This document shows positions 19,290-21,343 of a stretch of 21,717 nucleotides of DNA, in pieces. Within the stretch, counting starts at the first letter, position 1. Each line of letters opens with the position of its first letter. Where the stretch lies: IMG/VR virus record IMGVR_UViG_3300031669_000266, positions 1 to 21,717 of that record. One strand, written 5' to 3'. The notes beneath the pieces were generated by a model. The model did no database searches and was not told the DNA's origin. It saw nothing but the letters and a program-made list of their open reading frames with translations. The position numbers were made by a program, and so were the translations under genes. The DNA is from a virus.

Positions 19290-19658
19290 TTAGCCTGCAG
19301 CGCTGATGAACGTCACGCCCACGCGCGCACTGCCCGACGTGCTGGTCGTCGTGCTCGGGGTCACGTAGATCGGGGTGTCGGCGTTCGGATTGGGTGTTGA
19401 CCACGAGGCATTCCAGGGAGGCGAAATGCGGCCCACGGAGGTCACGGCAACGCCCGAGGCGATAGAACCGGAGGCTGCGGACGTCCCGACAGCGATCGCG
19501 GTGCCCGAAGTGGAGAACGCTGTCAGCGTGGAGACGTTCATCGTGTGGATGATCGCACCAGCGGGCAGCGTGCCCACCAAAACCGGGGACGGGCTATTGA
19601 AGTTAACGGTGGCGTTAATCTCCGACAGCATCCCCGCAATACTTGTTGCACTTGACAT
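19290..19658 (-). CDS. Small Ser/Thr/Ala-rich structural protein (possible head decoration)
   Basis: 122 aa, ATG at 19658, preceded by TAAGGAG with five bases to the start. The protein is rich in Ser, Thr, Ala, Gly and Val, without charged stretches, and reads as a small beta-rich phage structural protein ('FNSPSPVLVGTLPAGAIIHTMNV', 'TPIYVTPSTTTSTSGSARVGVTFI'). Such short proteins near the capsid gene are often decoration or head-completion proteins. It would have followed the capsid gene directly before the endonuclease gene was inserted. I do not recognise a defined domain; the decoration role is a guess from composition and position. Confidence 0.7.
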   Translation of the reverse strand: MSSATSIAGMLSEINATVNFNSPSPVLVGTLPAGAIIHTMNVSTLTAFSTSGTAIAVGTSAASGSIASGVAVTSVGRISPPWNASWSTPNPNADTPIYVTPSTTTSTSGSARVGVTFISAAG

Positions 19659-19677: not shown

Positions 19678-20373
19678 TTAGGCCGCGCGATTAAAGGATT
19701 GTAAATACCGCTTTGCTTTTTCCAGTCTATCCTCGTCGTCTGCAAAAAGTCCAAGTCCACGATTGCATTTACTGCACAAAAGGCCCCTTGCTTCCCCTGA
19801 TGTGTGGTCGTGATCCACCGCCAAACCCACCACTTTACCCTTGATTTGCATTGCCTCGGGAACGCTGCAAATAGCGCAACTGTGGTTCTGTTTAGCAAGC
19901 GTTTCCCGATACCACGCAAGGGATACGCCGTAGTTTCGGCGCAAATCGGAGTCCGCGTAATACTCGGGATTTGCTTCCCGAACTCGCTTTCGCCACTGCC
20001 GCACATACTCTTTGGTGCCATCGGAAGACTTAATGCTTTCCTTCCAGTAAAAATTGTCTTTAGACCAAGGTTTACTGACATCTTTCCGGCAAGCATTAAC
20101 GCGGCCCCCAAGAGAACTTTTTTCGGGGCGCGGCGGTACATCATTGGTAAACGCCCAAAAATCAGCTTCCCAATTTTCCGGTATGTCTCGGCGATGGTAC
20201 CGAAGCAAATTGCACCACGTTTTGTAAGCCGGGTGTGAAGTTCGCGAACCCCAATCGCCCGGACGCGTGTCGGCAACATCGCCATGCCGAAGAACGCGCA
20301 TGTAATGTTTTTGACACAGACCTTTTGCGATGACAGGAGCATGACAGTTATGGACTAGACATTTAAGCGGCAT
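19678..20373 (-). CDS. Homing-type endonuclease with N-terminal zinc finger and endonuclease VII domain
   Basis: 231 aa, ATG at 20373. Three parts can be read. Residues 5-30 hold C5, C10, C20 and H23 followed by 'YMRVLRHG', a zinc-binding module common in phage HNH proteins. Residues about 47-112 ('HPAYKTWCNLLRYH...W...FWAFTNDVPPRP...RVN....KPWSKDNFYW') resemble the AP2-like or degenerate HNH domain of homing enzymes. Residues 150-215 are a recombination endonuclease VII domain: C166-x2-C169 and C200-x2-C203 zinc ligands around D187-H188-D189-H190, then N204. All expected key residues are present, so it is probably an active nicking or cutting enzyme of the His-Me finger type. The gene is more AT-rich than the capsid genes on both sides, which fits an inserted mobile gene. 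A debranching role like T4 gp49 is possible, but the extra DNA-binding modules favour homing. Confidence 0.85.
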   Translation of the reverse strand: MPLKCLVHNCHAPVIAKGLCQKHYMRVLRHGDVADTRPGDWGSRTSHPAYKTWCNLLRYHRRDIPENWEADFWAFTNDVPPRPEKSSLGGRVNACRKDVSKPWSKDNFYWKESIKSSDGTKEYVRQWRKRVREANPEYYADSDLRRNYGVSLAWYRETLAKQNHSCAICSVPEAMQIKGKVVGLAVDHDHTSGEARGLLCSKCNRGLGLFADDEDRLEKAKRYLQSFNRAA

Positions 20374-20381
20374 TTGGTATC

Positions 20382-20410
20382 TCCGAAGGGCTGAAAATTT
20401 ACCCTTCGGA
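20382..20410 (-). promoter_or_regulatory. Hairpin overlapping the ribosome binding site of the endonuclease gene
   Basis: A perfect 9-bp inverted repeat (TCCGAAGGG / CCCTTCGGA, 11-nt AT-rich loop) lies in the 55-nt gap between the major capsid stop and the endonuclease ATG at 20373. In the transcribed (minus) sense the 3' arm ends in CGGA and runs straight into GATACCAAATG, so the only Shine-Dalgarno-like sequence (GGAGA, six bases before ATG) begins inside the stem. Folding should therefore hide the ribosome binding site. There is no U-run after the stem on the transcribed strand (it is followed by GATACC), which argues against a terminator in that direction. Free-standing homing endonucleases of T4 are known to be held down by such RBS-occluding hairpins; function here is inferred. 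Confidence 0.6.
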
Positions 20411-20428
20411 TTTTACCGGACTTGGCGT

Positions 20429-21343
20429 CTAAACTCCAGGCGTGCCGAACATCGAGCGCCAGTCGGTGAATCCGGTCTCGTAACGCTCGGTCGCCTTGTA
20501 GCGCATGGAGTCAGTCTCGAAGTCACCCTCCATCGTCTTCTCGAGCCGACGACGCATCATCAGCTTCAGCCCTTCGGGGGCGTCAGTCTGTACCCACCAC
20601 GCAGTGGAACTGGTCAAACGGGAGAGAATGGCCGCGCCTTCGTCCAGCAAACCGATCGATTTCACCGGGTTGATGTCGTTGTTGGCGTTGCCAGTCCGCA
20701 GTACCGACTTGAGCAGAACCTCGGCCTGGAAGATGTTGCCGGGAGCCACGACAAGCTGACGCGGAACCAAGCGGATGCGCTTGCCGTTGTTGTCCGCCGA
20801 CTGACGTACTTGGATCAGCATCTGTTCCAGAGAGGTCTGAGAGAGGACAGCAGCGGTGCCAAGCTGGTTGCTCTGCGTGCCGTTGACGATCGGGTGCGAC
20901 GTGCTGATGAGCGCCACGCCATCGCCGCCCGGATAGGCGGAGTTGAACGCGGTGTTCAGCACGTTCGCGGCCTTCAGTTCCTTGGTTTCCACCAGTGACT
21001 GTGCCAAGTGGCGGGCGTAGACTTGGCCCAGGCGGATGTGGTCGCCGTCTTCAACCAGAACCTTCGTCAGTGCGAAGGCGAGGCCGTAGACCTTGTACAC
21101 ATACCGCTTGAGGAACAGCACGCCGCCTTCTTGGTACGTCACCGGAGTGCCTTCGGGCAACTGCGGGGCCGCGCCGAAGCCGTACAGGACGGGTTCTTCG
21201 TGGTAGTTACGGGGAATGCCGTCTTCTTCGCGGAACACTCGGCTCCACTCGTCGGCGCGTTGGTCATAGACTCCATCAAACGATTCGTTGAGAATCGGCT
21301 CGACGATCGATCGAAAATCAGTACTGCGCATTGGTGCGGCCAT
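20429..21343 (-). CDS. Major capsid protein
   Basis: This 304-aa protein forms the head shell. Start: ATG at 21343 with GGGAG six bases upstream. The sequence has features typical of phage major head proteins: an N-terminal segment with 'IVEPILNESFDGVYDQ', a central 'ISTSHPIVNGTQSNQLG' loop, 'LVVAPGNIFQAEVLLKS', and a C-terminal 'WWVQTDAPEGLKLMMRR..EKTMEGDFETDSMRYKATERYETGFTDWR' segment. These read like the Mu gpT-like/HK97-fold major head subunits, and the length is right for that group. It contains no cysteine. It sits directly behind a capsid-associated gene, and a homing-type endonuclease gene follows 55 nt downstream. Family assignment is by recognition, not by search; the role as main capsid protein is fairly secure. 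Confidence 0.88.
   Translation of the reverse strand: MAAPMRSTDFRSIVEPILNESFDGVYDQRADEWSRVFREEDGIPRNYHEEPVLYGFGAAPQLPEGTPVTYQEGGVLFLKRYVYKVYGLAFALTKVLVEDGDHIRLGQVYARHLAQSLVETKELKAANVLNTAFNSAYPGGDGVALISTSHPIVNGTQSNQLGTAAVLSQTSLEQMLIQVRQSADNNGKRIRLVPRQLVVAPGNIFQAEVLLKSVLRTGNANNDINPVKSIGLLDEGAAILSRLTSSTAWWVQTDAPEGLKLMMRRRLEKTMEGDFETDSMRYKATERYETGFTDWRSMFGTPGV

Follow-up and report, generated by a model that had tools for sequence, protein, structure and literature searches.

Why should the Shine-Dalgarno (SD) sequence of an endonuclease gene lie within a hairpin, immediately behind the gene of the major capsid protein? The question arises from the window, by which we mean the whole stretch of viral DNA that was analyzed (21,717 nt). 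The answer we favor, at a probability of about 0.8, is that the hairpin belongs to a switch controlling the expression of a mobile endonuclease cassette, in which it would close the SD on transcripts that read through from the capsid gene, and in which a promoter lying in one arm of the hairpin would give the endonuclease a message of its own. The case is drawn from sequence, namely the hairpin with its conservation and covariation, the placement of the promoter, the mobility of the cassette and the lack of a recognizable terminator between the capsid and endonuclease genes.

The hairpin and its setting in the window

All the long open reading frames assigned as genes in the window share one direction. 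The major capsid protein gene (20429..21343, minus strand) is identified by its matches to Pfam Phage_capsid_4 (1.4e-10) and Mu-like_gpT and to the major head protein families of PHROG, and its product is 90.8% identical to the annotated major capsid protein MW202545. Its stop codon lies at 20431-20429 (minus strand). The gene that follows on the same strand is intact and encodes a homing-type endonuclease of 231 amino acids (19678..20373, minus strand), beginning with the ATG at 20373-20371, and a terminator scan of the minus strand found none between the two genes. The C-terminal domain is that of endonuclease VII (His-Me), as shown by Pfam PF02945 (Endonuclease_7; 7.2e-19) and PHROG endonuclease VII (2.6e-30), and the residues D187, H188 and N204, together with cysteines 166, 169, 200 and 203, are invariant in the protein alignment (A1). 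The N-terminus carries a zinc-ribbon-like C-x4-C...C-x2-H motif and matches phage HNH endonuclease families of PHROG; to our knowledge T4 gp49 has no such zinc-ribbon N-terminus. Directly behind the endonuclease lies an open reading frame that is the next gene of the structural module (19290..19658, minus strand), with a product 39-47% identical to that of the capsid-adjoining gene in L074 and L079, both of which are without the endonuclease. Elsewhere in the window, the segment 16688-17761 (minus strand) matches the SU10 adaptor family and has an F5/8 type C (discoidin-like) domain inserted in it, which is unusual in an adaptor.

The main hairpin (20382..20410, minus strand) reads TCCGAAGGG-TAAATTTTCAG-CCCTTCGGA from 20410 to 20382, and is recognized from the sequence, from its fold and from covariation in 23 relatives. 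It has a perfect stem of 9 bp closed by an 11-nt loop, and the final GGA of its 3′ arm provides the first three bases of the SD, GGAGA (20380..20384, minus strand). The transcribed strand has no U-run behind the stem, such as an intrinsic terminator would show. These features agree with the original prediction, and the stem, loop and overlap with GGAGA are reproduced by RNAfold, but the hairpin is larger than was predicted, an outer helix of 4 bp having been missed. The leader after the capsid stop codon can be written ACGCCAAGTCC GGTA AAA TCCGAAGGG TAAATTTTCAG CCCTTCGGA GA TACC AA ATG, and in the RNAfold structure the stem gains a tenth pair (G-U) and is continued across an AAA/GA internal loop by a helix of GGUA (20414..20417, minus strand; columns 14-17 of the leader alignment, A2) with UACC (20376..20379, minus strand), the latter situated between the SD and the start codon. 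The homologous outer helix in L081, L084 and L090 is GGUAA/UUACC. In the window the pairing spans the SD and ends 2 nt before the start codon. The computed folding energy is -30.3 kcal/mol (z -3.5), and 1 of 200 shuffles was equally good. Rfam 15 gave no match at the gathering threshold in the window or in five relatives.

This is the only perfect stem of at least 9 bp (loop 3-15 nt) in the window, and dinucleotide shuffles of the window contain 1.1 such stems on average. As a bare feature the hairpin is within chance expectation for 21.7 kb; we have therefore rejected any claim of significance from the window by itself, and the evidence must be comparative. The position of the hairpin on the SD is beyond chance, with a cost of opening the SD of 9.1 kcal/mol versus 3.5 ± 1.7 kcal/mol in shuffles confined to the upstream part (p 0.005), and its conservation in relatives is decisive.

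The SD hairpin across relatives

Viral contigs and genome contigs were scanned for relatives, with the capsid protein, the endonuclease and the endonuclease alignment as queries. With the window counted, the scans yielded 37 rows of distinct endonuclease loci. L105 was excluded as a short N-terminal match that does not lie behind a capsid gene, and L166 because its start is unclear, so that 35 loci were analyzed, forming 17 clusters at 70% protein identity. The location behind the major capsid gene formed part of the original prediction; the Pfam, PHROG and MW202545 matches bear it out in the window, and it is common to all 35 loci, where the endonuclease lies directly behind a capsid gene of the window type even at 36-39% endonuclease identity. 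The same is true of L145, L146 and L148, in which the endonuclease starts upstream of the matched part. We found no lysate-derived isolate with the endonuclease cassette in the annotated phage collection. Comparison with the window capsid protein also showed RW_GP086c of Caulobacter phage RW (L108:3001-3915) to be 75% identical across the full length; a 2024 paper gives the RW cluster as having no identified capsid gene (PMC11053796).

Nearly all the leaders of the 35 loci, which are 55-94 nt in length, can form a stable hairpin whose 3′ arm includes the SD. In the diverged loci the stems have no sequence in common, as exemplified by CTTGACCCCTCCTGTGG/CCACAGGAGGATCAAG (L190), TCTGGTATCC/GGAGGATACCAGA (L152), GATACCTCC/GGAGGTATC (L145) and AAACTCCAAGGT/ACCTTGGAGTTT (L094), and in several (L081, L084, L090 and L100) the start codon is paired as well. 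In a long transcript the median cost of opening the SD is 12.1 kcal/mol for the 35 loci versus 2.4 kcal/mol for the 541 SD-bearing control genes of the same loci; the control set retains a few near-duplicate endonuclease loci, which work against the contrast and account for most of the controls above 9.1 kcal/mol. Endonuclease VII genes in other contexts have a median of 2.8 kcal/mol (26 genes, with starts guessed by rule). When each locus is compared with shuffles of its own upstream part, retaining the SD and start, the cost is significantly higher (p<0.05) in 30 of the 35. Four more have obvious hairpins and p 0.06-0.12, leaving L151 as the sole remaining locus whose cost is not above that of its shuffles. 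Relatives with the endonuclease and no pairing, which were named beforehand as the finding that would count against an SD-hiding hairpin, are thus essentially absent.

The leaders of 23 loci can be aligned (A2). With the arms aligned by sequence and not fitted to structure, and the named structure being the one counted, 84.5% of cells are paired and 10 of 18 pairs show compensatory changes. The covariation score is 0.360, versus 0.171 ± 0.015 for shuffled alignments and 0.04-0.11 when slid. G-U pairs are present, as expected of RNA, and the three pairs between the SD and the anti-SD vary almost solely by way of G-U, as expected where the SD is fixed. The RNAalifold consensus of A2 contains 7 pairs only, because the stems differ and the loops have gaps. 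Taken with the opening costs, these strong compensatory changes support the idea put forward at the outset that the hairpin hides the ribosome binding site.

The leader of L103 (L103:3001-3100) has a further peculiarity. Its loop holds a second SD-like sequence, GAGGAG, followed by an out-of-frame ATG, from which a short peptide might start.

A predicted promoter overlapping the 5′ arm

The original prediction had the SD hairpin right but missed a promoter embedded in its 5′ arm. In most relatives a sigma-70-like promoter overlaps this arm, with the -10 box at its base. Scoring the 80 nt before each start with an approximate E. coli matrix, which may not suit the hosts, gave a median of 11.4 for the 35 endonuclease loci versus 3.6 for 605 control gene starts, and scores of at least 11 in 57% of the endonuclease loci versus 0.3% of the controls. 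Of the 35 loci, 33 have a -10 box whose end lies 26-32 nt upstream of the ATG (15% of controls). The boxes of the relatives are TTGACA-like and TAtaaT-like with a spacing of 15-18 nt, for example TTGACA-17-TATACT (L151), TTGACT-17-TATCCT (L152), TTGACA-17-TATATT (L103), TTGTAA-17-TATACT (L096) and TTGACG-17-TATAAT (L146). L103, L150 and L096 are examples of relatives in which the promoter is strong. No T4-type late promoter, TATAAATA, was seen in the leaders.

Some bases belong to both the -10 box and the anti-SD, and therefore conservation of the -10 is confounded with that of the hairpin and only the -35 is independent. Since the -10 also pairs within the stem, the -35 was tested alone with the -10 fixed. 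It is significant in 13 of 17 clusters, with a Fisher p of ~1e-16 that treats the clusters as independent, which is only partly so; no significant -35 box was found by this test in L142, L021 or the window. With a predicted start 7 nt after the -10, the leader would be 20-26 nt long in nearly all loci, keeping the SD and losing the 5′ arm. Because the predicted transcript lacks this arm, the cost of opening its SD is lowered to 2.5 kcal/mol, like that of ordinary genes, and by computed count the drop from the long to the short transcript exceeds 2 kcal/mol in 34 of the 35 loci.

In the window itself, promoter scoring points to a putative -10, TAAAAT (20410..20415, minus strand), at the base of the 5′ arm, in the same place in A2 as the -10 of L081, L084 and L090. 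The putative -35, TGGAGT (20433..20438, minus strand), is 17 nt from it and is poor, with 3/6 matches. The promoter score is 8.1 (p 0.02), the -35 alone gives p 0.18, and no promoter was detected at the hairpin when the window was scanned with a strict consensus. With such a -35, and a -10 that lies 36 nt from the ATG, the window promoter is not convincing, and this half of the switch therefore rests on the relatives. For the window, the sequence argues strongly for the hairpin half and weakly for the promoter half; its promoter may have decayed, or the window may rely on something unrecognized. A search of six records for a phage single-subunit RNA polymerase (PF00940) gave no match, which shows little since the controls were equally empty; the table for the RW cluster lists no single-subunit RNA polymerase (PMC11053796).

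Empty alleles and mobility of the cassette

In the empty alleles, those that lack the endonuclease, a G+C-rich hairpin comes after the capsid gene, in most cases with a T-run, and the next gene then follows with an SD of its own. This terminator or hairpin is unrelated to the SD hairpin, even between sisters on the capsid tree (L077/L078, L004/L021 and L071/L088). In the sister pairs the SD hairpin and the endonuclease occupy the place of the terminator or hairpin of the empty allele, and the same AACATCGGTCAAACTTTTCAAGGAGCAGACCATG follows the terminator in L004 and the endonuclease in L021. As the empty sisters hold an unrelated hairpin, the SD hairpin travels with the endonuclease, and the layout of the pairs indicates that leader and gene behave as one cassette, with loss of the old terminator in most. 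The alternative raised along with the original prediction, that the hairpin is older than the insertion and is left over from a capsid terminator, was rejected on the same ground.

The endonuclease is present in 5 of the 80 closest capsid loci, and on the capsid tree its distribution needs 12 changes, with at least 6 gains or losses forced by well-supported branches. By its domain and by this pattern of presence and absence it would be classed as a free-standing phage homing endonuclease, and presumably it homes.

The empty alleles have structures of other kinds. In relatives that have the capsid terminator, the capsid-adjoining gene has a conserved SD structure of its own (alignment A3: L004:1027-1063, L020:3961-3997, L026:4010-4046 and 26 others), of the form GGTC-AAA-CTTTTCAAGGAG-CA-GACC-ATG. 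Compensatory changes occur in 5/5 pairs of its outer stem (score 0.318, versus 0.126 ± 0.019 shuffled), and the inner CUUUUCAAGGAG is nearly invariant; it possibly tunes that structural gene. In a subgroup of the empty alleles (L045, L050, L060 and L069) a hairpin of the UUCG type or similar lies between the capsid stop codon and the next SD, without a long U-run, and resembles clearly neither a terminator nor a stem that would hide the SD.

A proposed mechanism and its alternatives

We propose that the capsid gene reads into the endonuclease gene on a long structural-gene mRNA, and that the leader of this mRNA would fold so that its 3′ arm holds the SD and, in some relatives, the start codon. 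Since the SD would be buried on the most abundant message, the endonuclease would not be translated from capsid mRNA. In most relatives the 5′ arm would carry the sigma-70-like -10, with the -35 in the stretch that separates the capsid stop codon from the hairpin, and a transcript of the cassette's own would begin ~20-26 nt before the ATG, without most of the 5′ arm and with the SD open. As only this short message would have an open SD, the enzyme would be made only from its own low-level message. The proposal supposes that the hairpin blocks 30S binding and that the arm promoter is active; from the promoter type, the endonuclease message would be made early or constantly, and the capsid message late.

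Of the alternatives, the one that survives best, while still improbable, is that the hairpin is an element of the 3′ end of the capsid message, either a terminator or a block to exonucleases, and overlaps the SD by accident. At exactly that place a strong hairpin, in most cases a terminator, is found in the empty alleles, and any stable stem could protect the capsid mRNA, so that a double role can be envisaged. Yet there is no U-run, the scan gave no minus-strand terminator, and the hairpin moves with the endonuclease and shows no sequence relationship with the terminator of the empty sister. Moreover it is placed with respect to the SD and ATG and not to the capsid stop codon, and a 3′-end element would need no constant placement of a promoter.

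We consider it somewhat less probable still that the inverted repeat acts as DNA, as an operator through which the promoter is autorepressed (compare the I-TevI operator), with the RNA pairing incidental. The stem sequences are wholly different among the clusters while pairing is kept, the tolerance of G-U pairs and internal loops is RNA-like and unlike the DNA half-sites of a protein, and the SD is always in the 3′ arm; all this outweighs the overlap of the repeat with the -10 region and the precedent of the T4 intron endonucleases, which autorepress at their promoters (PMC2988022). Just as unlikely is translational coupling, whereby ribosomes ending at the capsid stop codon would open the hairpin and the enzyme would be made in proportion to capsid. 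In the window the outer helix does start only 11 nt, and the main stem 18 nt, past the capsid stop codon, but a terminating ribosome would reach the outer helix alone and leave the 9-bp stem, the leaders of the relatives extend to 94 nt, and the conserved promoter inside the arm would go unexplained. A functionless chance hairpin, one perfect 9-bp example of which is expected for the size of the window, is the least probable reading; its position on the SD (p 0.005) and its conservation with covariation speak against it, and for the family it is already refuted.

Relation to known systems

The expression switch proposed here has known counterparts. In T4 genes e, soc and 49, in I-TevI and in mobE of phage Aeh1 the read-through transcripts have their SD or start codon sequestered (PMC3014915, PMC2988022), and a late promoter of e and of I-TevI yields transcripts that lack the 5′ strand (PMC3014915 section 29; PMC2988022 section 12). 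The leaders of T4 I-TevI, I-TevII and I-TevIII share with ours a homing endonuclease whose SD is sequestered on read-through, and an adjoining upstream promoter that gives a transcript too short for the structure (PMC2988022). These endonucleases, however, are intron-encoded, of GIY-YIG or HNH type, and use T4 late or middle promoters, with early or middle read-through and late expression, whereas the window-type element is free-standing, has the endonuclease VII fold and a sigma-70-like promoter, and is read through from the capsid gene. MobE of the Aeromonas phage Aeh1 and T4 segB are likewise homing endonucleases of the free-standing kind, each with a promoter of its own and an SD hairpin (PMC2988022, PMC3014915), but belong to other nuclease families and to T4-like phages, lie inside nrdA or the tRNA region, and have T4-type late promoters. 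T4 gene e has its late promoter within the DNA that specifies the 5′ strand of its SD hairpin, soc and gene 49 show SD/AUG sequestration, and the product of gene 49 (endonuclease VII) has the same nuclease fold (PMC3014915); these three genes differ in being resident and not mobile, and in their T4 late promoters.

By its anatomy the element appears to match the arrangement of T4 e, I-TevI and mobE, with a host-type promoter and in phages that are not T4-like. We have seen no sequence likeness that would support a common origin with the T4 leaders. In the literature that we found, occlusion of the ribosome binding site of homing endonucleases is confined to T4-like phages (PMC2988022, PMC3014915), and no paper in the open-licence literature was found to describe this capsid-endonuclease control element; the sigma-70-like promoter overlapping the 5′ arm of the hairpin is what appears to be new. 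The present loci show the same logic in a different nuclease family, represented by 17 diverged clusters, in non-T4-like phages and with a host-type promoter. We lean, with rather less assurance than for the switch as such, towards a broader statement: that in a widespread, capsid-associated endonuclease VII lineage a single stretch of DNA serves as both host-type -10 and anti-SD arm, so that the gene would have its own message from the host polymerase and be silent on the late capsid message, with the timing of T4 reversed and an origin independent of T4. If true, keeping the enzyme off structural mRNA would be a general need of such mobile genes, for which convergent solutions exist.

A different endonuclease-like gene (MKKVCSIDGC...) is located behind the capsid gene in two further loci (L027:3916-4440 and L218:640-760). 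It is unrelated to the endonuclease of the window, has the capsid terminator retained upstream and has neither an SD nor an SD hairpin, and it possibly represents another way of silencing at the same site, and so another solution to the same problem.
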